Origin: Schizochytrium sp. TIO01
Taxonomy: Eukaryota; Sar; Bigyra; Thraustochytrida; Thraustochytriidae
NCBI GenBank assembly: GCA_004764695.1
Contig: SMSO01000005.1
Location: forward strand, 719,501-783,500
Length of the DNA: 64,000 nucleotides
Reading direction: 5' to 3'
Position 1 is the stretch's first letter. Every line of letters begins with the position of its first letter. Below are positions 5,720 to 39,900 of the stretch, one piece after another. Below the pieces are notes generated by a model. The model saw only the letters and a list, made by a program, of their open reading frames with translations, had not been told where the DNA came from and did not search any database. The position numbers and the translations under genes are program-made.

Positions 5720-6446
5720 CTCCGTCTTTACCTTCTATCCTGTCTCTTCTCCTAGTTTATGATAGCTTAAGCACTTGGGTGTCTTCCTCAAGAAAGCCCG
5801 GCGTGAGCTCTTGTGATATCCTGTCGTTCGGTTGCTTAAGAAGGCCAAACCTCCTTTACCTTCAGGAATGGAGAACATGAAAAACCAGCAATTGATATGT
5901 CACTATCATTGTCATTTGTAACTCTTAATAGCTATTGTTAGTGCATATAAACCCTTCATTTCATACTATGGAGTAATAATTCCTTGGACTTGTGTTCATA
6001 CATACCACTAATAGTACCTAGGCAGGATACATACCGACATACTTATATACATAATTTAAATGATTTATAAGGGTGTTGCTTTTGAGAGTGTCGCTTCTAT
6101 ACACTTGAAGAACTGAGAATAGAGCTTTAGTTTTCATAGTCCTGAACCATATACCCTATATTTTGCAAAACACTGTCTCGCAAAACACTGTCAAGTACTT
6201 AGGGTTAGGTGTGTAACACACGATCTACATCGGTTCGTCTGACAGAACTATTTGCTGCAACAACTCCTCTTCGACTCCAGCTTATGAGACTGTTTCCTTT
6301 CCTTTCTCGCTCATCGATAATTTTCTCAGCTGCACGGCTCTCTTCAAATCTACATATGTAAAAGCCTACAAACCCGGTTCAACCTTCTCCTCTTTGCCCA
6401 TGGTCCTGGATCCGATTCCAAGCTCAGTAATCAGGGAACGTAGACA
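5720..6446. other. Intergenic region upstream of guanylate kinase
   Basis: No gene is evident. The stretch near 5720 should hold the guanylate kinase promoter. The right part borders the deleted IS607-like element. Confidence 0.55.
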
Positions 6447-6460
6447 CTTAGAGATTAACC

Positions 6461-6487
6461 TATAAAATTTGCAAAACTTGCATTTCC
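6461..6487. repeat. Left-end terminal motif, deleted element copy
   Basis: About 26 bases nearly identical to 7481-7507 in the full-length copy. The core is an interrupted palindrome, TGCAA-AAC-TTGCA. It lies at the Fanzor 3' end of the element, the part that in TnpB elements carries the guide-RNA scaffold. Confidence 0.8.
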
Positions 6488-6558
6488 TATGGTGAAAAAG
6501 TGGGCTACCTCCCAATCGCGGGTTAAAAACTAACCGGCGACTCAAAGACAATTCTTAA

Positions 6559-7063
6559 ATGACGCCATTGGATAGGCATCGTAAAAGGATGTCTTTGGCT
6601 GCGTGGATATCACGATCGGCTACGTGTTTGCATTTCTGGGGGTATTTGAAAACCGCGGATGCTCCGAGCTTGTCATGGATCGTAGGTACCACCACCCACA
6701 TTCAGTGCATTGTTTTGAGTTGCAGTCCTCTCTGCAAATAACCAATTTGCACCACTGGTAGGGGAAAAGCTCGGCTTTGTGAATGAGCGAGCTAGAGGTC
6801 ACCAAATTGGTGTTGGGGACCCTCGTTTTGATTCGCGGAGGACACCCTGGGGTAGATAATGGCATAGTCAGTGCTGCGTTGCTGTGTCCGCTGGAGCAAA
6901 CCGCAGTTATAGGTGCCCTCAACGTCATCAGCTGCGAATATACGATTGCCTCGAAAGGGCTTGCTGAGACGCCAAGCTTCTGGTGGAGGTACTTTGCTGG
7001 CTTGTCTTGTAGGTTTGCTTCACTTGTAGTGTTTGGAGCTTGGTGGTTCTTCGGCCATTCCAT
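6559..7063 (-). pseudogene. tnpA/Fanzor remnant in the deleted copy
   Basis: Translation from the ATG at 7063 begins MEWPKNHQAPNT and continues KPAKYLHQKLGVSAS, matching the helix-turn-helix start of TnpA in the large copy. The frame then shifts and, after the deletion junction, runs into residues resembling the Fanzor region around the first zinc knuckle (HKAELFPYQW, then CTECG). Further indels relative to the large copy scramble the zinc-ribbon frame. No recombinase or RuvC active site remains, so the product cannot be functional. The value of this remnant is that its ATG is in frame with the TnpA HTH, which shows where the large copy's start should be. Confidence 0.75.
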
Positions 7064-7105
7064 TTTCTTACCTAACCTCCACTAATTAACAATCACATAA
7101 ACAAT

Positions 7106-7466
7106 GATAAACTATTTCATTTTTATACAGAATAGTCAATACTATTCGGAGGTCATCAAAGTTCTCACGTTTTCATAAGTACAGTAAAGTACAGTGGAAG
7201 AAACTTCATATTGATAGAAGTCTTTGAGTTTAGCAGTTTGTGCGACGAACATATAAAGCCCAGAATCTGAAAATACTACCCAGGTAGGTACTACTAGTAG
7301 TTAGTATTTATGTTTACCTACCTAACCTACCTACTACCTACCTATACAGCTTGCACTATCTCCTAGGTAGTCCTAGTATTAGTAGTATTCATGTTTTCAT
7401 TTTGAGAGATAGATCATCATAAGGACGAAATGTGAGCGCTACCTAATCCGTTAAGAGCCCAATTCT
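7106..7466. other. Spacer between two transposon copies, with a hairpin-forming repeat
   Basis: About 360 bp separate the two element copies. No gene is seen. It contains AGGTAGGTA at 7282-7290 facing TACCTACCT at 7315-7323, followed by further CCTA repeats to about 7345. The two arms can pair with a 24-base loop. This is one of many TAGG/CCTA clusters in the window's spacers. Confidence 0.6.
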
Positions 7467-7480
7467 CTTAGATTTTAAAC

Positions 7481-7507
7481 TACAAAATTTGCAAAACTTG
7501 CATTTCA
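7481..7507. repeat. Left-end terminal motif of the full-length element
   Basis: Shared almost base for base with 6461-6487 although the rest of the two copies has diverged. It lies 20-50 bases beyond the Fanzor stop codon. The palindrome TGCAA-AAC-TTGCA could be a recombinase site or part of the guide RNA; which is unknown. Confidence 0.75.
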
Positions 7508-7527
7508 TAGAAGGAGCTAAGACTCCA

Positions 7528-9038
7528 TCACGAGCTAGTTAGACTAACCCGCGACTCAATGAAATGATTTTTTAAAATCATGTCCTTGGATAGGTAGCGT
7601 AAAAGGATGCCTCTGGCGGCATGGACATCACGGTCTGCTACATGGTTGCACTTGGGATTAGGGCATTGGAAAACCTTGGATGCGCCGAGTTTATGGTGGA
7701 GGGTACCGCACTCATTGCATGTTTTTGAAGTGTAACTCTCTTGGCAAAGAAAACAAGCTTGCACCACGGGAACATCTCAGCCTTGTGAACGAGAGCCTGG
7801 CGGAACCCAAAATGGCACCAACGACACATCATTCGAACAGACTTCTTGGATATCCGTCGCTCCATCTTCCTACTCATCTTAGAGGTTTCGAATTTAGGCA
7901 AGAGAATAACACGATAGTTTTCACAAAGCCAAAGTGCAAGCTTGCGATGAATCTCAGTGGTCTTGTTCTTGATCTTGAGTTGGGCGCGATAGAATGCGCG
8001 CTTCAAGGGGGTGTTGAAATTGTCTTTATCACTGGATGCAGTTTTCTTATTATTTTCTTGAGCTTTATCAATCCTGCTCTGGATCTTATCAACGCGGCGA
8101 CAGAGATAGAATATGGTTCTAAAATCTTTCCCTGTGCCCCATTCAATGGCGCGGCCATCAGCGTCATACATCGTCTGAAACGAGCGAACACCTGGATCTA
8201 GAGCAATGACACCATGGTACGCCTTGGGTGCCTGGTCCATTGGACGCTTTTTTTCTTCTCGTAAGAAGCAGAAGTAGACATGCCCAAGGCGATTCATTTG
8301 CACACGCATGGCGTTCGAAATCTGGTCGGGGAACTTTTCTTTACGTGTTCGGAATTTTTTTAGAAAGTCGGAGGTCTTTGATTTCTTCAAATTCCAGGTA
8401 CGTGCATTCACTTCGAAAATCTGTGATTCATCACGCTTGGTCCGAAACTTATAAAAAGATTGCTCATGAACTTTCTTTTGTACAGCGAGTTCTTCGTTTT
8501 TGGCTCGTCCCGAGTTAATAGCCTTGAAGAAATCCAGAATCCCGGAATCACGGATAGCCTGTGGGACCTCGAGAACCCATTCAGGAGCACCATTCCTTTC
8601 TTTAGATCGAACGGCTTTCTTTTCTCCATAGAGGGCACCATACGTTTGGGGATTCCCATCTTCATCTACTAAAACCTGCTTCGTCTTGGAATCCTTTTTG
8701 ATGCACGCTTCTTGATGCAATTTGATGGCTTCTTCCTCGCCCTTCGCCACGTCTCGATGAAACGCAACGCCAGTATTGTAGGCTCTTCTGGTGACACCGA
8801 ACCATTTAAGCAATTGTGTACGCTGATCTTTAGTAGGGTATACCCTAACCTTTCTGGCACGGACAAGGTCATATTCTTTCTTGGTGGTCTTGCGCGCCTT
8901 CGTGCGAGTTCGCTTCTTCCTCGCTGCGTCGTCGCCGTCTATTTTGCGCTGCTCGTTTTCCGTGATGCGATGCCACAAAGACAGTGATAATTCCGAGGAG
9001 GTCTTTGGTGAAGGTGTCTGAGTCTCCGGCATGTGCAT
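7528..9038 (-). CDS. Fanzor (TnpB-family) RNA-guided nuclease, one frame break
   Basis: The probable start is the ATG giving MHMPETQ, within the end of tnpA. About 500 residues result if one frame break near 7769-7772 is bridged. A very basic stretch (residues about 50-75, KKRTRTKARKTTKKEYD) resembles a nuclear localisation signal. Next come RARKVRVYP and the conserved N-terminal fold. The RuvC core follows: ALDPGVRSF with Asp at about 281, and LLPKFETSK with Glu at about 384. After the break, in another frame, are YTSKTCNECG, CPNPKC (zinc ribbon) and DRDVHAARG with the third acidic residue. Family members cut DNA guided by an RNA made from the element's 3' end. All catalytic motifs are present; a base seems missing between FP and VVQ. 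In the same frame the reading continues up to 9566 without resembling any protein, since it is tnpA read out of frame. Confidence 0.87.
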
Positions 9039-9566
9039 CTTGGCCGTGTACCACGAGTTTGACATTTTTTCTTTCGAAAAGGTGTTCCAGGAGGTCGACT
9101 GCGATTCGCGCAAGTCGGTCGCGGTGCATAACCACAACTTGGCCGATTCCTCCGCGGTCGCAGGCGTCCAGTAGGGAGCACAGGCCTTGGCGTTTGAAAT
9201 TGACCCCACTACCGATGTCTTTGTAGACGGCGGAAGCATCTGGGTAGGCGCGCTGGAGATCGCCAATCTGGCGTTCGAGGTCCTCCTTTTGCTTGGCCGA
9301 GGACACTCTGGCGTAGATAACGGTACATCCAGAGTTGCGTTGCTCGCGGCCGGCGGAACCGCGATCAAAGATGCGCTCAACATCGTCGCTGGCGTAGATG
9401 CGCTTTCCTCCGGGGAAGCGCGCGCAGCGCACGCGTCCGCCATCGGCCCAGCCCCGAAGGGCGCTTGCTGAGACCCCAAACTTCCGGTGAAAGAACTTTG
9501 CTGGTTTGTATTCGAGGTTTGCTCCACTTGCAGTGTTTGGAGCTTGACGGTTCCTCGGCTCCCCAT
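8869..9566 (-). CDS. tnpA: IS607-type serine recombinase TnpA, start shifted out of frame
   Basis: In IS607 elements this enzyme performs transposition through a covalent serine-DNA link. The N-terminal MerR-like helix-turn-helix reads KPAKFFHRKFGVSAS then GGRVR and GGKRIY. The resolvase catalytic part follows: VIYARVSSAKQKEDLERQ, where the first Ser of the SS pair is the expected nucleophile, then MHRDRLAR. The tail is Arg/Lys-rich and overlaps the Fanzor start by about 170 bases in another frame. Bridged, the product would be about 232 residues, usual for the family. The ATG at 9566 is one base out of frame with the HTH. The deleted copy has one extra base there and reads MEWPKNHQAPNT in frame, so this copy appears to have lost one nucleotide. 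No other in-frame ATG precedes the HTH. Confidence 0.87.
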
Positions 9567-9611
9567 TTTCTTACCTAACCTCCACTTCTTATCAATAACC
9601 TAAATAAACAT

Positions 9612-9901
9612 AATATATGCAATCATATCGAAATATAAGTTATCGAACTTTTAACGGTTTTGTTATGCTGATTACATATTAATATTAAATACAAATGACA
9701 GAATGCATGGGCTTTTCTAGCATGCGAACAGCAAGACCCAGAAATAACATAACATTTACTACAGTGTTTGAAGAAAGGCCCGGTAATCAATTGATCTTCA
9801 CTCGTCGGAGGGATTTCAGACACGCAGCGGGTTGCCGCCGCCCTGTTGGCACGGGGTTGCGCATGCCTACAGCAAGCGTTTACAAATAAAGCCACTTTAC
9901 C
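9612..9901. other. Spacer and probable promoter of the giant coiled-coil gene
   Basis: About 290 bases between the transposon and the next start codon, with no gene seen. The short AT-rich left part may include the true transposon edge, which cannot be fixed without an empty site. Confidence 0.55.
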
Positions 9902-25038: not shown

Positions 25039-28000
25039 ATGGCATCCAGTCATGGCGTAGCAGCCCCGTTGCGTGCTCGTCCTGTAGTTGGACTTGAGGA
25101 GGCAGATCCTATCGAGCAGTTCTGTGAGGAACTGGCGGTGCTAGAGCTCGCGAAAAGATTACGCAGTCGTGATGATGTAGAACAGTTTCTCCACGCAACC
25201 CGTAGCGCGTTGTTTAAGGCCCCTACAGTGGAATTTGATCCATTTACTTTACCTGACATCCTAGAGATTGGGTCGCCAAAGTCGATACTAGGACCTGATA
25301 TCGACGAACCATTGCTATCGACCTGTCCAGAAGATACAAATCTGCCCATGAACGTGCGACTTGGTGTCGAGGTATTTTTGCAAATGATTTCTGCGCTGGA
25401 TCTTGCGAACAATCCTCATGCCCTGTCTGCTCTTCTTCGCAGGCTGCCTAATATGCTTCAGGAGTTACCGCCATTATCCCTTACAGATAGCTGTATGGTA
25501 GCGCGAGAGGTTTATATTGATACACAAATGCGCTTGGCAAATCTCTCTGGGAATGATGGCCATGAGCTTGATAACTTTCAGAAGCGCAAAGCAAAAATCG
25601 CTCGCGAGCTAGAGCGTCGCAAGCGCATGTCAGCAGCTATGACAGCCAATGCTGGGATTCCTTCTGCAGTCTCCCGAGTATTAGAAGATGCATACTATGG
25701 TACAGTCTCAAGTGTGCGCCATCGTAAACACCAGAAACAGGCCGCTGGGACTTCCAGAAAAGTTTATACTGGACCTGCATTTCTTGAAAATGACAGCCAC
25801 TCTCATCAAACAGACCTTACTCATGGAAACCTTTTATCAACTTGGCTCGGGCTCAGTATTAAACGTGGAGCACTTTCTGGCCTAGCCAAAGTCATTCGTG
25901 TTCTTCTTCATCATGGATCTACCGTGAACGCGACAACATTCTTAAGTAATACCAGACCTACTGAGCGTGCAGAGTCGGAGGAGGAAACTAAGTCTCCTGA
26001 GGCATATGATCGTTCTTCAATGTCTGTACGTTGTGAGCAGGAAAGTCTAATCACGGATTTCAAAGGCCCTTCTTTATTACAGCAAGAGGCTAGTGAAGAT
26101 CTTGATGTCGAAACTTTTCTCCGAGAAATTGCGGTGGTTCAAACCAATACTGTATTGCAAGCATTCCAACCTCCTGAACAAGGAGATATTGGAGGCACCC
26201 TTTTCACCTTTGGTAAAGGTGATCATGGAAAGCTTGGCCATGGCAAATGCACAGAAGTTGATCCTAACCCACAACCACACCTTCATGAGCACTGTCCAGA
26301 TGGTTACTGCACAGAAAACATCAAGTCTCCTCGAATGGTTCTTGATCTTGAAAGCGTATCAGTATGCAAAGTTGCTTCGTTATCAACTCACTCCGTTGCA
26401 CTTTCAAGCGAAGGCGTGCTTTATACCTGGGGTAATGGTGACAAAAACAGACTTGGACATGGAACTACAGCTAAAGAGTACTATCCTCGGATAGTGAACT
26501 CTTTGCTTACACGTCCTCCGGTCGTTGATATTGCCTGTGGTCTTGGCCATACATTAGCTTTACTCGAGAATGGCCACCTCTATGCATGGGGAAATGGAGG
26601 GAATGGCCGTCTTGGTCTCGGAGATACCGAGGACCGAGCTTTGGCTTGTCTTGTTACCAAGTTCGTTACAGACCCAAGCGACGAAAAATATCTGCAAGAT
26701 CCAGTGAAGCAATCATCTTTTAAAATGCCAGCAGGCATTCGACTTGTTGGTCTGCATTGTGGTGCTAGTCACTCGATGGCTGTTGCTGAAGACGGGCGAT
26801 GCTTCACGTGGGGCAAAAATAACCAGGGACAATGCGGTCATGGTGATGTGGCAGATAAACTTTACCCTCAACTTGTTGAATATTTTGTTAAGAATAATGC
26901 TGCGAAGGAACAACAAGGTTCTGATGATGAAGGCCCTAGACTTGTGGACGTTGATAATTCTATCAGATCTATGGCTGGTGGGTGGGAGCATACTCTTGCT
27001 CTGACACGTGATGGAAGGCTATTTTCTTTTGGTTCAGGCTATAAAGACTCTCGTCGTTCAGGGTTACCACCGGTGCTAGGCCATGGAGGAACGGAGCGTG
27101 AGCCTCGGCCACGTCAAATTCTCGCTTTGCAATCTCAGACTATCAAATACTGTACCTGTGGATGGGATCACTCAATGGCAATAAACGAGCATGGACATGT
27201 TTATTCATGGGGTGCAGGAACTAATGGAAAACTTGGTCACGGTGATGAAGAAAGTCATCCTCTTCCCAAAAGAGTTGAGTCTCTAATTCGGGAGAACGTC
27301 CGGATTGTCCAAGTCGAAGCTGGATGCGAGCATTCTGTAGCAGTCTCTGATGAAGGTTATTTATTTACATGGGGACATGGAGACTCCGGACGCCTAGGAC
27401 ATGCAACAAGTCGTACCGAGAAACGCCCAAAGCGCGTTGAAAGCCTCGTCGAACAAGGCCTTCCAGTCCTTACAGTTGCTGTTGGTGATAAATACAACTT
27501 AGTCCTGATACAGTCGGATGCAGCTATTAAGGCTTCGCAGGTCTCTTCAACGTACAGCGCGAAGGATACAGCAGAGCAGGAAACAGAACAACATAAACAA
27601 GACGAAGAATGCGATGAAACTGACCCAGAGGTATTCCCAGAGGAGAAGAACGGTCAGACATTCCTAAAAGAAAATGACCGCATCCAGTCCGATGTCTTTA
27701 AAGTGAAGGCGTCGCTTGCTGAGTCTACCAAGAAAACTATGGGTAGGTCATCTCAAGGAGCGCTTGAAAAGGGTCGGCTATCCGAAGCACTACTTGGTCT
27801 GGCATCGTTCGAACTTCCTTGTGACGATGACGAGCTTCTCTCTGAATGGCTTCTGCGTGCAGATCGTTCAGCCCTTTTTGTTCTAGCGCATATGGAACGT
27901 ATCGCTTCGAACGTAGCAAATGTATTTATTTCAGAAGGTATGAATACAAATGATGGAGAGAATGAGACAAGCAACACTTCTACTCAACAAAGTTCATCTA

Positions 28001-31000
28001 TTTATGCTCCTGGATATATCCCCTCTTGGAAACAATTCTCAGTTTCGAACCAATCTTCTGACAAGTCATCGTGCGATACAACTCATAATGATGAAGAGCA
28101 AGATGACCGTGGCAGTATATTTGTCCCTGGAACGCGTGCTTGGAAAGAGGCAATCTGGCGTAATTTACTCGACGGTGGGTCTCTTGACAAAATTTCCCTT
28201 CCTTATTGTATTGAAACAACATCAGAGGGGTTTTCAGGTCTCGTGCAACTACTCAAGGAAACCCTTTCCCTGATAAAAACACAGCAGCAGGACCATCAGA
28301 CTTCTGCAGAATATCAATGCGCATGCCAAGAAGGGCAAGACTCGTGTTCAGATGCTCGCTGGTTTGCTATCTGGGCAACACTACGAATTGTTTGCGTAAA
28401 CCTTATGACCCTTAATAAATTGGAAGCCAAAGAAGGTAGCCAGGAGTACCGCCTCAAACCTAGTGGAGCTAAATGGGATCTTACGATGAAACAATTACAT
28501 GAAGTCCTCTTAAAAATTGTTGGAATGGACTTTGAGGGACACAAAGCCCGACAAGCCTCTTCAAATTCACCCCGTTCAAATAATTCTGACAAACGTATCA
28601 CATGTTTTGAGATTAATGAAAAAGCTAAGCAAGAAGTCGTCATGGTTGCAGCTACTGCATTACAGGAAGGCTTCAAAGAATTTTATCCCACAGCAGAATC
28701 GCGCCTTGGACTTTTGCGATATATGCTCGAGACTAGTACCAAGGCTCGAGCAGGAGGTGATTCAAACAGTCGGGTTCTGGACATCCTAATGACAAACCTA
28801 GCTAGGGATGACGCAATGCAACCGCTTGTTGCCGGCATGGCTTCTTCAGAATTTGACACTCTAAGCTTGTTGAGCGATTTACTTCAGAACTCCCATCGCC
28901 CATCTCACTGTCAGCTGCTTCTTGCATTTCAATCCCATGCCTTTGCTGTATGGAGTGATACCGAATACTCAAAGCTTCGCGATGTTTTGATTCAGTTTAG
29001 CGTGCAGGTATTTAATGTTTCTGCTTCTCGAGTAGTAGCTATGAAGAACAAAACACTCGAATCGGATAAATTACTCTCTGTGGTACTGCCTCAACTGGTG
29101 TCTGCTCTGATAGTTACTCAAACAGTCCCCCTAAAGGAACAGTCCGCTCTGCTTCCGCCTCTCCGTGCTTTATTTGATTGCATGATTAAAAGTTCTATGA
29201 CCTCAGTTGTTGCAGGCGAGACAGGACGTCTTGTAGCTCGTCTGTGTGGTAAATTTTTATGCCAGGATCTCTGCCAAGGCCTTGGCGAACTACTGTTGTA
29301 TATTCGCCATGTCAAGACTAAACCGACTCTCGTAGCAGAACTCACATACCACCTCCCTTATGCACGTACTTGGTGTGGCGAATCAATTGTTGTATGTGGT
29401 AATCCAGACCTCTTTGGACCAACTCGTAGCGAGGTGACTCGCTTAAACAACCAAAACCTTCTCCACAAGAGAAATCAAGCATGTGTACCCTTGGAAACAG
29501 CTGTTGCATTCATATGTGAGCTTGTTGTACTGGACACATCAAGCAGTGCACAAATCGCTTTGATAAGTCTTATTGCCGCACATCAAGAAAATATATCTGC
29601 AAAACAACTCGAAACTCTTCTTGATGCTGTATTATCACGATACGAATCAGTAAACCACTTCCAGTCCCAGGAAATTTGTAGCAGCAATAATTTCACATTT
29701 AACTCTGACCTTGAGCAGATTTGGAGGTCCATGATTGCCCTTGCAACAGCGGCCTCGAAACGACCAGATCTCTCCACTTCCACACTGCGACGTAAGTTCT
29801 CTGATTGGGTGGTTTCTGAAATATCTATTTTGAACAAGGAGTTGCACGATTACGCAGAACATGAGACGCGACTCGGTATGTTTCTCAGTGAAGGCGCATT
29901 TGTGAGCACACAGCTTAACGGAAAGCTTGTTCCAGAATCCATACCAGAAGGTAGCATTCAAGCTGAAGACGATGATGACCTTGATCGAGCTGTCGACAAA
30001 GTTTTGCGCGGCGCCCTAGGCGAGAATGCAACCGCAAGTAACACCGCTGAGCTCGTGGCTCAAGTTCCACCAGATCAGATAGCCGCAAAGGGCTTTTCGT
30101 TATCATTTTGGATGACCAAAAGTTCTGGGCATACACTAGACGAAGAGTTGCTTGATGGTAATCCACGTGTAATTCTGGCTCGGTGCCAACGTCGAGATAA
30201 TGAGGATGATGGACCTCTTCAATCGCAGCATCCTCTATTGCAGCAGGGTTTATCATGTGAAGAACACAGCATTGTAGCACATCCAATTATACTTCTTCGT
30301 AAACCAGATAGGGGTGACAAGTGCTCTTCGCAAGACGCTGTTGTGGAAGTTCTCATCTCGACCATTCTTCTTGAGGATGCTAAACGAAGTACACTTGTTG
30401 AGCATGCGTCAGTGGGTGTTCCGATTGATAGTTTTCAGTCATGGATGTACGTGAGCATTTCTGTGGACATGGTGTCAAGATCATTAATCCTGTCAGTAAA
30501 TGGTGGAAAATTTTCCAAAATTGTTAAGCTGCGGGGTCAGGTTTTGCGAAAAACTTCAAGCTCAGTCCCGGTCCGTTTCGGTGGTTGGAAGGGGAGCACA
30601 GAAATTTCCAAAGCGAATGCTGATCAATGTACAGCTGCCCAAGACGGCTGTAGCCTAAATTTTTTCTCTCGAGTCCTAGATAGGGGTGCCCCTGTAGTTG
30701 TCTCTGACGTAATGTGGCACCAAAAGAGTGCGACAGATTCAGAGATGCTGCAACTTTACAAGCTGGGGCGATGTGCTGATTGGCAAGCTTCTGCGGCTCG
30801 CGCAGAGCTGCATGCCAATCGTTTGCTACAGTTTGTCGAAGATGGTTTGCTTCCACTCAGTCAGAATGGCCTTGCCTTGACAAAAGAGTTGTTCAGCCTC
30901 ACACGATGGCTTTCTGTGCAACAACGCGTGCTTCTGGTACTGGAGGCTCATGAAGACTGGTCTGGGCTTCTAAAACTCTACCAAGGTTACGTAAAAACTA

Positions 31001-34000
31001 GAGCGGCAAAGGCGTACTGTCCTTGTTGCCAGGAAGGTGCGCCAGGTCTGTTGCTGTCCCTTCGAACACGTGCTGGCTATGAACCTTTTTTGCGGGATGA
31101 ATTCTTTCAAGATTTTGTTCTGGCAGCGCGTGCTCAGCTCTCCCGTCGATGCACCGATCTTTTACCTCCTCCTTCGAAACAGGGAATGTGCGAAGCATGT
31201 TCTGCGATAAGTAAAACGTTTGATTGGTCTAGAACGCTGGCACATCAAGCGTCGTTCAATGCTGCTCTTATTCGAGGTGCTCAGGCTGCGCTTGTACATC
31301 TAAAAACAAGCGAGGCAGATTCTTTGTTAGCAGAACCTGAAGGTGTGCTTGATTTATATGGTGTAAACCCTTCAGGTGCACTATGTCAACAGAGCTCTGT
31401 ACTCTTAAAGACACCGTATGGCATCGTGGCTGGTAAGATCATTGATGTTTTTGAGACTGGGCGTTTGATGAAAACATTTTGTCTTCAACAGGAAGATCAC
31501 TTTCTCCCATGTCACGCTTCTATCTTCAACGCAGGGGGTGTGGACGGCTTGTACCCATTCTATGTGTCAGATGAAGCAGCAATTGCTGCACTTGAAGTTG
31601 CACGTCTTAAAGGTCTATTCTCAACACTCGATGAACCATTAAGTCCGAAGTCACCGGGGTCCCCAACAGGGCGAATGCCTGGAAAGCATGCTGGACTAAC
31701 GGTCTGGGAAAGACAGGGTGCTACTTTGGTGAGGCGTACAGGATATCTCAGTGAGAGGGACCGTGACGCACTTCTTCGTCTCGATTATAATGCGCTCTGC
31801 AAGCCAGTTGCGAAGAAGCAATCTGATAAGTTTGGACCTGCAAGCTGGTATCTTGATATGGTGGCTCATGTTGAGCTCGAGGGCGGAGAGCAGCGGTGGA
31901 TCCCAGTTGCTCATTTATGCTCCGTGCCAGATGAACCTAAATTCAAATTCCCCGAAGTTCATACTCTATTGAAACTTTGCGACGAAGCAATGCCGTCAAA
32001 GACTTTGATCAAGGAGAGTAACAGAGATGGTATAGCAGCACTCAAAACTCTTCGAGACTGCCTTAGAGTGTTGTGTCAGGCTTCAGGTTTGGAAGATCGG
32101 TCTGAGAGTATTGGAAACGCTTTAATTCAATCCTCGAAGGACACCATTCTTGCGATTCTAAATCTTGCTCTCTCCAACAACGAAAAGCTTACAGCTGAAT
32201 TTTTGAAGAAGTGTGGTTGCAGAGAAGGCTTGAGCCCCGATGTTGCTCGTGTCCTTCGTCAAGTTTCCGGCAACACACGCACATCGCTTCGTCTCTTGGA
32301 AGCTGCGAGTATACGTTTGCACGAACGACTTTGCACGGAAGAAAACTCTTTTGGCACGAACAGTGGCAGCAGTGTCCTTACCAAAGGTAGTTGTTTCGAA
32401 GAAAACGGTGATTCAAATAGCACTACACAGGTCCTCTCTAGAGTGGGGGGGTGCCAGAGTACAACTCAGGCGGTTTCTGCACAGGGTCAGCCACGCCAAT
32501 CCTCCTCTTTGTTTAGCTTAGAAACAATGAGCGGAGATATACAACTCGATCAGCGAGGGCTTCGTGCTCAAGGCGTAGGCAACTTTTCGACCGTTCGTTT
32601 GAAGCAAATTGTTCCTCCTATGGCTTCTGAAGCAGGTCTAGACGGTGTCATTGCTCTTAAAGAAGGGAAGTGGTACTACGAAGTTGTTCTTATGAGTGAC
32701 CAAGCCATGCAAATTGGTTGGGCCGACTCCCGCTTTCAAACTTCAGTGGAGCAGTCGATAGGTGTTGGGAACCATGCCAATAGTTGGGCATTCGATGGAT
32801 TTCGGGGACGATTTTTATCGGGTAGCGAAATTCATTCCTACGGACCAGGAATGCCATGGCAGGTTGGGGATGTTGTTGGATGCTCACTTGATATTGATGC
32901 ATCAATTCTGTCCTATTCGCTCAATGGATTGAACCTTGGCATCGCTACGAGACTTCCTTCAGTTTCAGAAGGGCTATTTCCAGCTGTCTCGTTTACGATG
33001 GGACAAAGCGCTCGCTTCGTGCTTGATAACTTTAACTATTCTCCGCAGGATGGATACCAGAGTATTCTAAACTCATTAGGGGGTACTAGTTGCAAGATGT
33101 TTATGCCATCATTGAATGAGGATCTGGCCGAAATTGAACAAGATATTCAATTTATTCAGGAGACACTGGGACAAGATGACGGCACAATAGCGGGAGATGG
33201 TGCACCATTAGACCAATCTCCTCAAGAGTTTCAAGAAAATGCTGCGCATTCACCATCTCAGGAGGAAAGAGGTCAACGCATAGTCGATGCTTTGCTTGCA
33301 ACTGGGTTACCTATGGAGTGGTGTCGACGCGCGGTAGATCATGTGGCTCGAGAAGCAGAAGAAACGGGGTCAGCATTCGACGAAAATGCTGCAATATCGT
33401 GGGTTATGGATCGTATGATGCAAGAGGATGGTCAAGAAAGTCTTATCCGAAGTATGGTTCTCGAGGGTGCAGGCATCGGTATGTCTGAAAACAGCGAGCG
33501 ACATGATGATGCGAAGACGCCGCGGGAGTTTCTGGTGTACGAGGAGGCTTTATCAGGAGATGCCTTTAATCTGGAAGCCGAAGTTGCTCAAAGTCAGATG
33601 CAGAGTTACTCAAGCTCCCCAGTCTGGGAACGTGTAACAACTGCCGCCTTCGATGAACCTACAGGCGCTCAAGCACGGAGACGCGCGATTGCAACGACTT
33701 GGTCCGAAGCAAGCGGTTCTACGTCTACGTCCTTGATTGGAGGGGATTCTGCTGCCCTGGGAGGTCTTTCTCTTTCTATTCCAACTCTTGGAAAGTCCAA
33801 TAATTTTGATCGAGGTGAACTACCCATCCCCGCTCTTTTACAATTTGTAGAAAGAGCACGCTCATCTGAGCTTGAAGCTTGTACAGTAGCGGTAAATAGC
33901 GCTCTGACTATTGAGTATGCGAGATCGAGCCTTCTTGCTTTGGCTAACGCTTCGTCGGCTTTGTTTCAGATTGGGAAACATGAAGATTGGATTAAGCTCA

Positions 34001-35658
34001 TGCGTCTCACTCTATTTAGAGGTGTCAATTTATATGAGCACCTTCATATTTACCCGTTACCGAGACCCTATTTAAGCACATCTGGCTATGATGCATTGCA
34101 GCATGTACTTGCGGGTGCTTCTCAAGAGCTTCTTCATTCTCTGACCACTGAGGCCTTACGAGATTTACGTCGTGCCACAAAACCTGCTTTTGGGTCTGTT
34201 TCATGGGGCTCCATACGGGGCACACGGCGATACACCATTATGTCTGTGATCAACAGCACATCTCGTTATGACCCTCAACTTGATCATGCACTATGTGTAG
34301 CGACTAATGGTTTTCGAGGTGAACCGCATCTCATGTTGAGTGATGAAGAAGCTTTGACTCAGCCCAGTGTTGAGCTTGCAGTCTTTCTTCTTAGCGGTAT
34401 ATTGGATACCGTACGGGAGACCCCAGATTTTGATCCGGAAAGTTCTGTAATTATATCAGCCGACATTCTTGGTCAGCTTGTGGACTGCCTCTTTTGCAAG
34501 AATGTGGCGATGAAAGATGCAATCATTCGTCTCTGTAGCAAGGTCCTACGATCTGTAATTCGCTTATTTCAGCAAGGCAGTGTCTCAGCAGATTGGTCGC
34601 GTAAACTTCTGTCTTGTATTCCTGTTCCAATTCTGCAGCGACTATTTACAAAGCGCTATCAGAAGGAGCAACCATTCTTGAATGGAACGCAACATACAGG
34701 CTATATCCATGGTCTTCTTGAGCTTTTAGTCGCTGTTGAACGACTTGAGCGTCTTCTGAAATGTAGAAGCTCAGCTACTTTGAATTCAGCAGACGATGCA
34801 AACAAAATCAGTTCCAATCTTCGTTTGAATGCGAGCCATATTACCGAGGATTCAATTCTTTTAACATGGAAGCGGGGTCTTGTTAGCTCTTCCTCACAGT
34901 CAGATTTTCACAACGAAGAAGATGCAGATCATATTGATCAAAGCGAAAGAGTGCACGGCTCTGGGGAAGCGAATGCCCGCAGAGAGTCAGCCTCCATCTC
35001 TCGAATCAATTTCCGCCGTGGCAGTGGTCAAGCTGATTCCGGGTCTAATCGCTCACACGATACTTTTGCAAGCGAGTATGGGCGAGGAGACGACGAACAA
35101 CCCTCACCATATGGATCATTCCGTGGTATAGATTTGGCTGAAGATGATTCAAATGGAGGTACTGCAGACCCCCAATCAAGTCTACGTCATATTGGCCGAA
35201 CTCGGGCCTCAGTGAATCGTGAGCCTTCAGATAGAATAGCGCAGCAGGAAGAGTTTAGAGTCCGCCCAGGCACCGTGAGAGTTCTTGAATACTCTCTTGA
35301 CCGTGAAGGCTTAGAGTGGAAGACTCTTGCAGAGCTACCAGCTGCTGCTCAAAGTTATCTCATGGAGTGTGCCCATCCAGATACAACGTATCGGTTTAGG
35401 ATGCGGCTTCGGGCACCATTTGAGGAAGATGTTCAGTCCCCAGGCTCCACTAAAACCCGAACACCTACTGGTCCAGTTACAATCGTCGATACTCTTTTAC
35501 AGCCTGTTCTTATGCTGAGCTCAGAGCAGTGTGGGCCAAACTTAATTCTAAGTAGTCTCAATCGCTCTGTGAGGAATACTGTGAATAAAAAATGGAATGC
35601 TGTGCGCTGTAATGTTGGATTTACTCGTGGGGTTCCATTCATGGGAAGTGCACATTGA
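25039..35658 (+). CDS. Giant RCC1/ConA-like/SPRY/UBA/FN3 protein, N-terminal part (frame break at end)
   Basis: This is a HERC-like scaffold of about 3,888 residues when joined with the next entry. Seven RCC1 repeats occupy residues about 385-820 (for example FTFGKGDHGKLGHG, YTWGNGDKNRLGHG), enough for one seven-bladed propeller. A LamG/ConA-like sandwich lies at about 1680-1905 (GFSLSFWM to MWHQKSATDSEMLQLYKLG). A Cys pair region (CPCC, CEAC) follows near 2000-2050. The first SPRY domain is at about 2510-2665 (WYYEVVL, QIGWAD, SYSLNG), a UBA-like helix bundle at about 2745-2800, and a split FN3-like module at about 3262-3457. The second SPRY begins at about 3507, and the frame ends inside it. 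RCC1 plus SPRY recalls HERC1-type ubiquitin ligases, but no HECT domain is found. A role in ubiquitin signalling or GTPase regulation is inference. Confidence 0.9.
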   Translation: MASSHGVAAPLRARPVVGLEEADPIEQFCEELAVLELAKRLRSRDDVEQFLHATRSALFKAPTVEFDPFTLPDILEIGSPKSILGPDIDEPLLSTCPEDTNLPMNVRLGVEVFLQMISALDLANNPHALSALLRRLPNMLQELPPLSLTDSCMVAREVYIDTQMRLANLSGNDGHELDNFQKRKAKIARELERRKRMSAAMTANAGIPSAVSRVLEDAYYGTVSSVRHRKHQKQAAGTSRKVYTGPAFLENDSHSHQTDLTHGNLLSTWLGLSIKRGALSGLAKVIRVLLHHGSTVNATTFLSNTRPTERAESEEETKSPEAYDRSSMSVRCEQESLITDFKGPSLLQQEASEDLDVETFLREIAVVQTNTVLQAFQPPEQGDIGGTLFTFGKGDHGKLGHGKCTEVDPNPQPHLHEHCPDGYCTENIKSPRMVLDLESVSVCKVASLSTHSVALSSEGVLYTWGNGDKNRLGHGTTAKEYYPRIVNSLLTRPPVVDIACGLGHTLALLENGHLYAWGNGGNGRLGLGDTEDRALACLVTKFVTDPSDEKYLQDPVKQSSFKMPAGIRLVGLHCGASHSMAVAEDGRCFTWGKNNQGQCGHGDVADKLYPQLVEYFVKNNAAKEQQGSDDEGPRLVDVDNSIRSMAGGWEHTLALTRDGRLFSFGSGYKDSRRSGLPPVLGHGGTEREPRPRQILALQSQTIKYCTCGWDHSMAINEHGHVYSWGAGTNGKLGHGDEESHPLPKRVESLIRENVRIVQVEAGCEHSVAVSDEGYLFTWGHGDSGRLGHATSRTEKRPKRVESLVEQGLPVLTVAVGDKYNLVLIQSDAAIKASQVSSTYSAKDTAEQETEQHKQDEECDETDPEVFPEEKNGQTFLKENDRIQSDVFKVKASLAESTKKTMGRSSQGALEKGRLSEALLGLASFELPCDDDELLSEWLLRADRSALFVLAHMERIASNVANVFISEGMNTNDGENETSNTSTQQSSSIYAPGYIPSWKQFSVSNQSSDKSSCDTTHNDEEQDDRGSIFVPGTRAWKEAIWRNLLDGGSLDKISLPYCIETTSEGFSGLVQLLKETLSLIKTQQQDHQTSAEYQCACQEGQDSCSDARWFAIWATLRIVCVNLMTLNKLEAKEGSQEYRLKPSGAKWDLTMKQLHEVLLKIVGMDFEGHKARQASSNSPRSNNSDKRITCFEINEKAKQEVVMVAATALQEGFKEFYPTAESRLGLLRYMLETSTKARAGGDSNSRVLDILMTNLARDDAMQPLVAGMASSEFDTLSLLSDLLQNSHRPSHCQLLLAFQSHAFAVWSDTEYSKLRDVLIQFSVQVFNVSASRVVAMKNKTLESDKLLSVVLPQLVSALIVTQTVPLKEQSALLPPLRALFDCMIKSSMTSVVAGETGRLVARLCGKFLCQDLCQGLGELLLYIRHVKTKPTLVAELTYHLPYARTWCGESIVVCGNPDLFGPTRSEVTRLNNQNLLHKRNQACVPLETAVAFICELVVLDTSSSAQIALISLIAAHQENISAKQLETLLDAVLSRYESVNHFQSQEICSSNNFTFNSDLEQIWRSMIALATAASKRPDLSTSTLRRKFSDWVVSEISILNKELHDYAEHETRLGMFLSEGAFVSTQLNGKLVPESIPEGSIQAEDDDDLDRAVDKVLRGALGENATASNTAELVAQVPPDQIAAKGFSLSFWMTKSSGHTLDEELLDGNPRVILARCQRRDNEDDGPLQSQHPLLQQGLSCEEHSIVAHPIILLRKPDRGDKCSSQDAVVEVLISTILLEDAKRSTLVEHASVGVPIDSFQSWMYVSISVDMVSRSLILSVNGGKFSKIVKLRGQVLRKTSSSVPVRFGGWKGSTEISKANADQCTAAQDGCSLNFFSRVLDRGAPVVVSDVMWHQKSATDSEMLQLYKLGRCADWQASAARAELHANRLLQFVEDGLLPLSQNGLALTKELFSLTRWLSVQQRVLLVLEAHEDWSGLLKLYQGYVKTRAAKAYCPCCQEGAPGLLLSLRTRAGYEPFLRDEFFQDFVLAARAQLSRRCTDLLPPPSKQGMCEACSAISKTFDWSRTLAHQASFNAALIRGAQAALVHLKTSEADSLLAEPEGVLDLYGVNPSGALCQQSSVLLKTPYGIVAGKIIDVFETGRLMKTFCLQQEDHFLPCHASIFNAGGVDGLYPFYVSDEAAIAALEVARLKGLFSTLDEPLSPKSPGSPTGRMPGKHAGLTVWERQGATLVRRTGYLSERDRDALLRLDYNALCKPVAKKQSDKFGPASWYLDMVAHVELEGGEQRWIPVAHLCSVPDEPKFKFPEVHTLLKLCDEAMPSKTLIKESNRDGIAALKTLRDCLRVLCQASGLEDRSESIGNALIQSSKDTILAILNLALSNNEKLTAEFLKKCGCREGLSPDVARVLRQVSGNTRTSLRLLEAASIRLHERLCTEENSFGTNSGSSVLTKGSCFEENGDSNSTTQVLSRVGGCQSTTQAVSAQGQPRQSSSLFSLETMSGDIQLDQRGLRAQGVGNFSTVRLKQIVPPMASEAGLDGVIALKEGKWYYEVVLMSDQAMQIGWADSRFQTSVEQSIGVGNHANSWAFDGFRGRFLSGSEIHSYGPGMPWQVGDVVGCSLDIDASILSYSLNGLNLGIATRLPSVSEGLFPAVSFTMGQSARFVLDNFNYSPQDGYQSILNSLGGTSCKMFMPSLNEDLAEIEQDIQFIQETLGQDDGTIAGDGAPLDQSPQEFQENAAHSPSQEERGQRIVDALLATGLPMEWCRRAVDHVAREAEETGSAFDENAAISWVMDRMMQEDGQESLIRSMVLEGAGIGMSENSERHDDAKTPREFLVYEEALSGDAFNLEAEVAQSQMQSYSSSPVWERVTTAAFDEPTGAQARRRAIATTWSEASGSTSTSLIGGDSAALGGLSLSIPTLGKSNNFDRGELPIPALLQFVERARSSELEACTVAVNSALTIEYARSSLLALANASSALFQIGKHEDWIKLMRLTLFRGVNLYEHLHIYPLPRPYLSTSGYDALQHVLAGASQELLHSLTTEALRDLRRATKPAFGSVSWGSIRGTRRYTIMSVINSTSRYDPQLDHALCVATNGFRGEPHLMLSDEEALTQPSVELAVFLLSGILDTVRETPDFDPESSVIISADILGQLVDCLFCKNVAMKDAIIRLCSKVLRSVIRLFQQGSVSADWSRKLLSCIPVPILQRLFTKRYQKEQPFLNGTQHTGYIHGLLELLVAVERLERLLKCRSSATLNSADDANKISSNLRLNASHITEDSILLTWKRGLVSSSSQSDFHNEEDADHIDQSERVHGSGEANARRESASISRINFRRGSGQADSGSNRSHDTFASEYGRGDDEQPSPYGSFRGIDLAEDDSNGGTADPQSSLRHIGRTRASVNREPSDRIAQQEEFRVRPGTVRVLEYSLDREGLEWKTLAELPAAAQSYLMECAHPDTTYRFRMRLRAPFEEDVQSPGSTKTRTPTGPVTIVDTLLQPVLMLSSEQCGPNLILSSLNRSVRNTVNKKWNAVRCNVGFTRGVPFMGSAH

Positions 35659-36954: not shown

Positions 36955-39900
36955 TCATGGAACAAAACTATACCTTTCACTATCTTGCGAAGCAACTTTT
37001 GTCGCTAGATCACTTTCCAGGGCGCCTGGCTCTGTTTGAGTTGATCTTATAGTGCCCTCCGGTTGAACTGAAGATAGAACAAATACCAAGTCCGCTTCAT
37101 TCAGATCCTCGTCAGCAGGCGGGTTTGTGCTCACATAACTATTCATCCGCAAGGCTTCTGAGGTACTGTGAGAAGAAGAATTCTCATTTTGAGTATTTAG
37201 CTGTCCAAACATCTGTCGCAGTAGACCAAGCGGAAGGATCCCCCTCTCTTTTGTAAGATATTGAAATAATGTTCCATACGAAGCACCAACAAAGTTTGGT
37301 GGAATCCTCATCTGGTACAGGTTGGAGTCAGAAAATGGTCCTACCCGTGTAATTAGTTCTTCACGAAGCTCATCTAGCAGCGAACTACCGTAGGATGAGA
37401 TGAGCATTTGAATCACTGACAGTAAATGAGGGTTGTAAAAGCTTTGACAAATGAGTATATCCAAAGTCGATGTTGGAAACACTTGTCCAGAAGCCAATAA
37501 TTTTAGCGTGCTCTCCTCTTGCTTCATTTTTTGTAAATGCTGTTCACCTTGTAAGGCATGAAAAATATCTGCCAAGTCAGCCATCGGAGCAGGAGTATCT
37601 ATCGAGTCGCCTTCCATACCTACGTCAAAGGAGACACTCTGGCCACCAAATTTTGATGGTAGATTATCATTTTTAGTCTCATTTGTAGTATCAATAAGAA
37701 GGTGAAGGTTGTCAGAGTTAACAATCTCAACAATTAAATCTACGTGAGGATTGATCTCGAGTATCATTTTTCGTACAAGAATAGCTTCTGCGTCTACTCC
37801 AGTTTGGGCATTCAGAGCATGGACCATGTCATTCTGGTGCTCATTGCTTTCTTTTGTTACAATTACAACAGTTCTTGCGAATTCGATACCAGCACGGTCG
37901 AGGTCATCGGGGTTAAGTGGTGTCCCACGCACAAAAAATAAGAATGGGAAATTTGAGAGTCTGCTCCAAACACTTTCAGTGGGTGGATGTTCAGCTAAGA
38001 GAACAATTGGTATGGTATCAGTGAGGTATTTGAGTCTCAGTGTCCGGACAAAGCTAATGATGTGATCCATGTTTCCAATTACTATAACGTGGTCTTTAAG
38101 ACTTGGGAGCTCTGCTGCTACTGACGATTCAATCGTCGCATGGCTGAGAGGGACTGATATTCTAGACATGTGAAAATGATGTGTGTCTTCTGTTTCATAT
38201 AGTGAAGTTTCCTTCGTAGTCGGCCCGCCAGGTCCTCCATTAAGATCATTACGCATAGCAGACCAAAGGCCACCCTTCTTAACTGCTGATGAAACATTGG
38301 TTGGGGAGGAAGGGTTTCCTTTATTGATAAAACCCATTTTTGAAACTGGTTGCTTTGACAGAGATTCAGAGAAACTATCGGGCCCAGATTTTGAGGTGTG
38401 AGACAGGGTAGTGCTAGCTGGGGGTAGGTTTGTATGTAGTTCTGCTGTTTGAGATCGCATTGCAGCTAGGTCGCGCAGTACACCCCGAGCGGTACGGTGA
38501 GACGAATCAAGGGAAAGGTGCCGTAGCATAGATGCACTGCGTTCATCTTCAGCAATTACGTAAGCATGTGCATGGAAAGTGCCAACATCGGGTATGCAAA
38601 ATGAGCCAGGGTTAAGGATTACTCTTTGTCGCTGTGTAAGTGGGGCACGAAGATCGATAGCGAACAGAACAATTCCAAGACGCCTATATAGAATTTCAGA
38701 TGCATCAGCAAAAGGCACTCCAGTGAATGCGTTTCCAAGCATGACGCGATAAATCTCATATCCAGACCCACGTTTATAGTCATGCATCCAATCAGAAGAG
38801 CGCCGCATCTTGGTTTCTCTCAGATGCCGCGAGGACATCTGTTTTCCTACAGGCGCTGGTGCTACAGCATTGTGTCTTTTGGAATTAGTTGAGTCAGCTC
38901 CTCGATCCCCACCCATCGTATATGCCTTACCAAACGTATGATCATCGACTGCTACGGAATCGTCACCCTCCATGGAGCCCACCAAATTACTGAGCATAGT
39001 CACGAACCCAGGACACAAACATGACTTTGCTATGATATCCATTTTAACCTGCTCAATACTAATGACCTGGTCCGCAAGATGGCAAGGTATACTTGCACGA
39101 CTAATCGTGAACAATGCTCTACTTTCAGCTCGGAGGAACTGAACGCAAACTAAGATGTCGGAACGATTATGATGCATAGCAAAACGTTTGATAGAGAGTG
39201 CTTTCAAAATAGCAACAGCATCGTCGTTATGGGGAGTTGAAGTAAACTTGTTCGCCAATATGAAGCATGCACTTGCAAAATCTACCTTTGCTCGAGCTAA
39301 ATCGTGGGAGCTTAACGGGGAACCGTCTAGATATGTTGTCCTGGATCTGTATGCTGGCAGCTCTAAAACCTTTAGAAGCGAGAGAGAAGGAGTTCCCTGC
39401 ATTAAAAATACAACGTGCAAGGTGGCAGTTCCATGATCAGGGTGATAGAGCTCCTTTAAGAAATCCCTTGCACTTACAGCATCTGTGTACCCTGTTACAA
39501 TTACATGACAAATATGAGGTGATGCTTGATATTCTGCACGTTTGTAGATTGTTGTACTCCCAATATTGCGCATAATTATATTTGTCCACTTTGGAATGTA
39601 CAAAAGTGTGAGACAGATAATGCCTGTTACAATCATTTTACCTGGAACTGTTACCATACAAATATCTCCATATCCAACTGTTGAAAAGGTTACAACCATA
39701 AAGTACATGATTTCGTGGTAGGCAAGCTGTGTCTCTCGAAGGACAAGCCGGAAACTATTTTCAACCGTGAAGATGACTGCAGCCAGGAAAATAAGGCCAG
39801 TCAATACATGCAGAAAAACCATACCAATTTCCTTTTTTTGCTCTTGTTTGAGGTATAAAAGTAGACGTCGTAGGCGTAGAAGGCGGAATATGCGAATGTA

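Follow-up and report, generated by a model that had tools for sequence, protein, structure and literature searches.

A dead IS607-type Fanzor2 element in Schizochytrium sp. TIO01 belongs to a family whose nuclease frame is probably nested within tnpA

The stretch of Schizochytrium sp. TIO01 DNA analysed here (contig SMSO01000005.1, positions 719,501 to 783,500; 64,000 nucleotides (nt), hereafter the window) carries an IS607-type Fanzor2 element on its minus strand at 7465..9667. Fanzors are eukaryotic RNA-guided nucleases; in this element the nuclease accompanies TnpA, a serine recombinase. The ends were placed by a genome DNA search, being common to sibling copies with different flanks, and they correct the extent of 7467..9611 given by an earlier sequence-only reading. 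All features of the element lie on the minus strand. The tnpA frame (8869..9566) matches the serine recombinase profile PF00239 with 73.2 bits against a cut-off of 23.3; its start is broken in the window copy, and the protein has 232 amino acids (aa) in intact siblings. The Fanzor2 frame (7638..9566), offset +1 relative to tnpA, has 642 open codons and is broken before the zinc ribbon. It includes a profile match to the HTH_OrfB_IS605 domain PF12323 (8757..8861) and carries DPGVRSF and LLPKFETSK; the zinc ribbon and RuvC-III part (PF07282, 7606..7746), with CNEC, CPNPKC and DRDVHAA, is displaced into another frame. The sequence-only reading had already recognized both proteins by these features, namely a resolvase motif following a MerR-like helix-turn-helix, and a TnpB/Fanzor protein with the motifs just listed.

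Comparison with three siblings reveals two indels in the window copy, one directly after the tnpA start codon and the other between RuvC-II and the zinc ribbon; therefore neither TnpA nor Fanzor could be made whole from this copy. The length of the Fanzor frame is itself a consequence of the damage, because the tnpA start codon has been shifted into it, and the broken frames are also the reason why the sequence-only reading needed 'bridged' translations. No intact catalytic Fanzor is encoded here, the frame being interrupted before the zinc ribbon. The window element is a dead copy, a broken member of a known element type.

The genome (64.06 Mb, 37 contigs) contains at least 62 matches to the whole element, on many contigs and with different flanks; this count is a lower bound, as 40 of 203 candidates were scored. 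Among the matches listed there are 19 long copies at 90–100% identity, the window copy included, and the remainder form a tail at 66–85% identity together with short pieces. The closest copy among them lies on the same contig, 275 kb away, and differs by 29 substitutions over 2,199 aligned bases. PF00239 is matched at 27 places in the genome. In 21 long copies (L009–L029), the 232-aa TnpA is present in nine, and 14 have a Fanzor frame in which the N-terminal SWY, DPGVRSF and RDVHAA all occur. Both genes are open in eight of the 21 and neither is open in the window copy, so that the 'copy with both genes' that had been proposed exists among the siblings and not at this locus. The element is eukaryotic, as had been supposed: besides its dispersal, a RibD_C gene of the window matches, at 99% identity, an MMETSP transcript protein that has four member sequences, and the best Fanzor match is an MMETSP transcript protein of 601 aa, 91% identical over the whole 514-aa query.

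The assignment to IS607 and Fanzor2, which the sequence-only reading had left to profiles and a tree, was borne out. TnpA of the intact sibling L013 matches transpos_IS607 (NCBIfam NF033518) over residues 27–210 with 144.9 bits, above the equivalog cut-off of 110, and is an IS607 TnpA; the N-terminal part of the window TnpA aligns with it. The L013 Fanzor exceeds the cut-offs of PF12323 and PF07282. The D, P and G of RuvC-I and the R and D of DRD are invariant across 18 proteins, and in a quick tree the sibling Fanzor clusters with Fanzor2-like proteins from MMETSP, metagenomes and Durusdinium. A TnpB-like nuclease with a DPG RuvC-I signature, a zinc ribbon and RD, found beside an IS607 TnpA in a eukaryote, has the features of Fanzor2. 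The nuclease of the family is accordingly taken as Fanzor2, and RNA-guided DNA cleavage is its predicted activity.

The two genes of this family overlap deeply. Over some 500 nt the Fanzor frame, in +1, coincides with the catalytic half of tnpA, where it encodes a conserved N-terminal segment of the nuclease, PYW...LW...SW[FY]S. In the family, CAPYW...LWSCTATDLRESQSTSW...KSWYTAK of the Fanzor frame overlies the TnpA catalytic stretch ...VVVMHRDRLARIAVDLLEHL...VKIVVHGQ. In the window copy the overprinted segment (CAPYW...LW...SWYTAK) lies at 9039..9182, where it overlies the TnpA catalytic region in a different frame, and the evidence for constraint on it comes from siblings and relatives. The candidate Fanzor start codon is at 9441..9443 and corresponds to the second AUG, counting from that of tnpA, in the intact siblings. 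All eight intact copies have this second AUG in the Fanzor frame, at +124 in seven and at +172 in one; in L013 some 570 nt separate the first Fanzor-frame AUG from the end of tnpA further downstream.

The arrangement was surveyed in relatives recovered by a DPG-pattern scan. There are 29 from IMG/VR, and from GTDB genomes the best 80 of 280 were taken, mostly from cyanobacteria, with some from Poribacteria, SAR202 and others. These 109 loci include some near-duplicates; 103 of them (28 from IMG/VR and 75 from GTDB) have a TnpA frame beside the nuclease, whereas in L153, which has none recorded, the contig starts inside the nuclease. The nuclease frame is offset by +1 in all 103 pairs. An open overlap of at least 150 nt is found in 94 pairs, with medians of 509 and 536 nt, and the motif [SWK]W[FY] stands upstream of the nuclease core in 96. 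A Fanzor-frame ATG is present upstream of the motif region at 42 of 42 loci. For one relative, the record of Microcoleus phage OR578706 (L187) lists the long nuclease as a 'hypothetical protein' and has no annotation for the open TnpA frame that overlaps it.

Constraint on the +1 frame was measured on TnpA genes from 75 of the 103 pairs (those in which the TnpA frame reaches 540 nt or more and the nuclease frame overlaps it) and from L013. Removal of relatives at least 75% identical reduced these 76 to 42. The null model was 100 rounds of shuffling in which synonymous codons changed places inside each gene, keeping its protein and codon usage. Under the PYW–SWFS segment (76 columns, 3,116 codons), the +1 frame contains no stop codon, against 110 ± 8 expected, whereas the +2 frame contains 170 against 192 ± 9. 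The BLOSUM score in +1 is 1.40 against 0.10 ± 0.03 (z 44); the +2 frame is also in excess (z 22), as expected from shared ancestry, and the +1 value is therefore inflated. The argument for constraint rests on how many stops there are and on how the frames differ. In the first part of the overlap there are 23 stops in +1 against 79 ± 7, with a BLOSUM z of 12 (5.6 in +2), and upstream of the overlap (29 columns) the +1 frame shows no BLOSUM excess (z −0.8). A first set of 17 TnpAs agreed with the constraint in +1. When the stop count was repeated without the overlap-frame filter, which had removed L104 and L128, the 43 genes gave 0 stops in +1 against 114 ± 8, and 174 against 193 in +2. Upstream of the overlap, the Fanzor frame is stop-rich (60 against 45 ± 4), as if read-in from upstream were selected against.

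Ordinary IS607 elements show nothing comparable. In 12 of their TnpAs, stops are not depleted in +1 (59 against 57.5 ± 4.7) or in +2 (70 against 79). The annotated overlap in seven ordinary elements (six plasmid controls and H. pylori IS607) ranges from −29 to 26 nt, and the N-terminal motif is absent from all seven. The TnpB frame is closed inside tnpA in most of them, by 1 to 19 stops. A Thermus control has 58 open codons upstream without the motif, and Paraburkholderia L184 has about 300 open nt inside tnpA, in this case in the +2 frame, rich in Arg, Gly and Ala and again without the motif. L185 and L186, with no nuclease by the core profile, and L175 and L177, with none annotated, contribute TnpAs to the 12 and are not TnpB controls. 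In the Fanzor2 family and its relatives, by comparison, the alternative frame is open beyond chance and constrained at the protein level, as in an overprinted gene pair.

Individual residues point in the same direction. An alignment of 48 proteins was restricted to those spanning the segment, which left out P0010, P0013 and P0114. Ser130 and Trp131 never vary in it, and conservation is at least 90% at Trp92, Ser100 and Leu103, alongside the RuvC residues. Opposite the Fanzor Trp, all 41 of 41 TnpA codons end in TG, whichever of Val, Leu or Met they encode. A Fanzor Ser is conserved in 38 of 41 sequences, 24 of which use TCN and 14 AGY codons, while the TnpA residue lying over it is V/I (24), K/Q (16) or S (1); preservation of the serine by two codon sets points to selection on the amino acid of the Fanzor frame. 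The segment is also kept where TnpA is dead or was not found. At L069 (6.1 kb of a 174-kb IMG/VR contig) there is a complete nuclease with SPYWTDKIEQISKQLF...TNSWFTVK; no TnpA frame was found nearby, and the TnpA frame holds 15 stops in 80 codons. L068, L082, L130, L134, L151 and L170 have one to four TnpA-frame stops in this stretch, the Fanzor frame being open with SWF. Similar segments occur in the EukProt proteins P0031 (where it reads SWS) and P0043, and the 601-aa MMETSP protein, a predicted protein, carries the segment as well. Curated models leave it uncovered; the guided_TnpB model begins at residue 198 of L013.

On this evidence we are confident that the transposon in the window is a dead copy from an IS607-type family with recent activity, in which the nuclease frame is nested in +1 within tnpA and encodes an N-terminal segment of the nuclease there. 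Joint openness of the two frames in nearly all pairs, at a constant offset, would also suit ribosomal frameshifting from tnpA into the +1 frame, which would fuse the nuclease to the N-terminal helix-turn-helix (HTH) of TnpA. This mode of translation is unlikely, since every one of the 42 loci offers a Fanzor-frame ATG upstream of the motif region, the Fanzor-frame AUG is the next AUG in all intact copies, and L069 has no nearby tnpA to shift from. The open +1 frame is very unlikely to be a by-product of codon bias, base composition or a nucleotide signal in tnpA, with the nuclease starting downstream. The similarity in +2, which also exceeds the shuffles, would fit such an origin, as would database proteins like P0114 (374 aa) whose first residue lies beyond the overlap; against it, the shuffles preserve each protein and its codon usage, and no comparable stop depletion is seen in +2, in the upstream part or in ordinary IS607. 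The serine kept by two unrelated codon sets and the survival of the motif at L069 and in P0031 and P0043 count against it as well.

The two remaining alternatives concern the locus itself. The window copy could be regarded as an intact, working TnpA–Fanzor element, its motifs being readable if the frames are bridged; both genes contain indels that break their frames and are missing from the compared siblings, which makes this highly improbable. Bacterial contamination joined into the contig, or a lone assembly artefact, might be suggested by the many bacterial relatives, mostly cyanobacterial. The long young copies and the older, decayed ones, spread over many contigs and differently flanked, refute it, as do a few dozen non-autonomous relatives in the genome (see below) and the 91%-identical MMETSP transcript protein; we give it practically no weight.

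Several observations weigh against the nested-frame reading or restrict it, to which the excess in +2 must be added. By the pattern used, the motif is missing in seven of the 103 pairs, and nine have a short open overlap or none; these nine comprise five near-identical IMG/VR contigs with a TnpA stop and four GTDB loci where the open frame of the nuclease starts after the tnpA frame ends. The listed relatives P0010, P0013 and P0114 start downstream of the segment. A candidate start ATG stands at the aligned site in only 13 of 42 loci, against 8 ± 2 in shuffles, and a conserved ATG nested in TnpA A-D-E/G codons was dropped for this reason. Recent substitutions fail to separate the frames, since 12 are silent in TnpA and change Fanzor and eight are the reverse; the comparison of L084 with L090 is equally uninformative. 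Diversity is 1.9% in the overlap, 4.2% in Fanzor-only and 1.7% in TnpA-only sequence, and as the first value is close to the last, low diversity in the overlap proves nothing. No solved chain matches the segment significantly (best E 0.62), and the L013 Fanzor falls just under the cut-off of NF040570 guided_TnpB (94.7 against 100).

The right end of the element, CTAAGAG at 7465, and the left end at 9667, which follows CAG, are common to other copies, and the putative target CTG (CAG on the coding strand) occupies 9668–9670 beside the left end. IS607 transposons typically insert at a short dinucleotide core, with neither terminal inverted repeats nor a target duplication. Of 18 left ends that are clear, 14 have a CAG no more than 12 nt 5' of the left-end block, against a background of 15%. 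Together with the CTAAGAG right ends this fits an AG core, which we give as a candidate core with a candidate left boundary. The bases between CAG and the left-end block vary even among near-identical copies (L009–L030), a variation not expected of a precise serine recombinase. All 20 right ends listed for the young family are followed directly by A or T.

At the right end, 7465..7588 on the minus strand, lies an RNA scaffold, a candidate fRNA/omegaRNA (E 1.5e-26, the alignment behind the model including the window copy). The putative guide of the window element would be the flank 7445–7464. In four young copies a stable fold is predicted for the right-end hairpins (z −4.5 to −7.1), in two old ones a weak one (z −1.6 and −2.4); the RNAalifold consensus is poor across the young and the short-element families taken together. 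Hairpin pairs are formed in 89% of cells, against 38–50% when the partner is slid. Covariation in the hairpin does not exceed that of shuffles, 42–92 of 500 being equally high, which tells against the assignment, and Rfam contains no match for this RNA. In view of the fold, covariation and Rfam results, the right-end RNA is described only as a probable fRNA.

The sequence-only reading overlooked the deep gene overlap and also a second, internally deleted element next to the first. This short element (737 bp, 6445..7181, minus strand) has its own left and right ends, a right-end RNA (6445..6570, minus strand; E 4.2e-24 with a model that includes this copy) and a 147-codon open frame (6620..7063, minus strand) in which a TnpA N-terminal remnant is joined to Fanzor C-terminal remnants; the frame has no Pfam match. 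It belongs to a dispersed, non-autonomous family with a few dozen copies among the matches listed, about 75% identical to the short element and many with both ends, of which 20 (L046–L065) were fetched and aligned. Where it is clear, the right end reads CTAAGTG, against CTAAGAG in the young family. The copies have kept the right-end RNA and no whole gene, so that every short copy would offer its own guide if Fanzor acts in trans. A full and a short element also lie close together at C13:3962501-3965397 (L012 and L056), about 130 bp apart and in opposite orientation, forming a close pair as in the window.

There is a further subgroup of five copies with different flanks, which share an insert of 294–295 bp (L039–L043) interrupting tnpA upstream of the Fanzor start. 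The complete Fanzor frame is retained in three of the five insert-bearing copies (L021, L023, L025). The insert itself has 41 matches in the genome, five of them being these copies and some lying near contig ends. An intron was rejected, as the insert has no GT–AG ends and is a dispersed repeat elsewhere. We read it as a repeat nested in tnpA by insertion and spread afterwards, most simply with TnpA supplied in trans to copies whose own gene is broken.

Elsewhere in the window there are a 3,539-codon intronless RCC1/SPRY frame (25039–35658) and a frame for a BK-type calcium-activated potassium channel (36955–40662).

These data suggest the following mechanism. In intact siblings, insertion at CAG-like targets would be the work of the TnpA serine recombinase, and Fanzor2, together with the right-end RNA, would cut sites that have lost the element. 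The Fanzor/TnpB frame would begin inside tnpA, in +1, a nesting far deeper than in ordinary IS607 and seen in nearly all relatives examined, so that the shared stretch would encode both the TnpA catalytic domain and the nuclease N-terminal segment PYW–LW–SWFS. In eukaryotes the simplest route to the nuclease may be leaky scanning, with ribosomes passing over the tnpA AUG and initiating at the one that follows. For the lineage as a whole, we think it probable that the N-terminal domain of Fanzor2 and its pro-Fanzor ancestors arose by overprinting on tnpA in the +1 frame and is still needed after loss of the recombinase, having tied the two genes together.

If so, the overlap would help to explain why IS607 TnpA and the nuclease entered eukaryotes and viruses together, because neither gene can change freely within it. 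The N-terminal segment would then mark the pro-Fanzor/Fanzor2 lineage. Annotations that place the start at the HTH domain, and perhaps experimental constructs made in the same way, would be truncated; some database entries, such as P0114, would then be without the domain, and activity tests on truncated proteins could mislead. The family would also provide a testable case of a protein domain derived from an alternative frame that has outlived its gene of origin.

Among known elements comparable with this family are the ACa elements, whose host, judging from the element name, we take to be Acanthamoeba. ACa-1 and ACa-2 are included, with CRv-1, ISvMimi, ISvNY2A and ISvAR158, in the account by Bao and Jurka (2013, PMC3627910) of Fanzor2 associated with TnpA_IS607 in eukaryotes and viruses. 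Their elements likewise combine a TnpA_IS607-like serine recombinase with Fanzor2 in eukaryotes or large viruses; the present family differs in its new host genome, its 19 long young copies and its non-autonomous family. The 'useful new case' seen by the sequence-only reading is thus a fair description of modest weight, the combination of TnpA and Fanzor2 having been reported in 2013. PMC3627910 describes the N-terminal regions as highly variable, and the word 'overlap' is absent from its main text; a legend in Saito 2023 lists Fanzor2 with proteins said to have gained N-terminal extensions. Ordinary IS607 elements (H. pylori IS607 and those of Thermus, Thermaerobacter, Methanocaldococcus, Bealeia and lactobacilli) likewise have TnpA followed by TnpB, often with an overlap of a few bases; two papers mention 'two orfs, which often overlap' (eLife 2018, PMC6188088) and overlapping or separate open reading frames in six bacterial species (PMC9956272). 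The pro-Fanzors of Yoon et al. (2023, PMC10711439) are mostly cyanobacterial IS607 TnpBs with DPG; the paper also gives the GG core of ISXfa1, and its main text makes no mention of overlap, reading frame or 'N-termin'. Pro-Fanzors share the DPG RuvC signature and the IS607 TnpA partner with the present family and differ in being bacterial. By host, DPG signature and TnpA, our GTDB loci appear to be such pro-Fanzors. In the open-licence PMC literature searched, seen in part, there is no report of a conserved deep tnpA/Fanzor overlap or of a domain arising from it, although absence of such a report is unproven. As far as searched, the nested coding arrangement is a new feature of the Fanzor2/pro-Fanzor lineage, and the GTDB relatives found by the DPG pattern have the same +1 overlap and the same PYW...SWFS segment as the family in the window.

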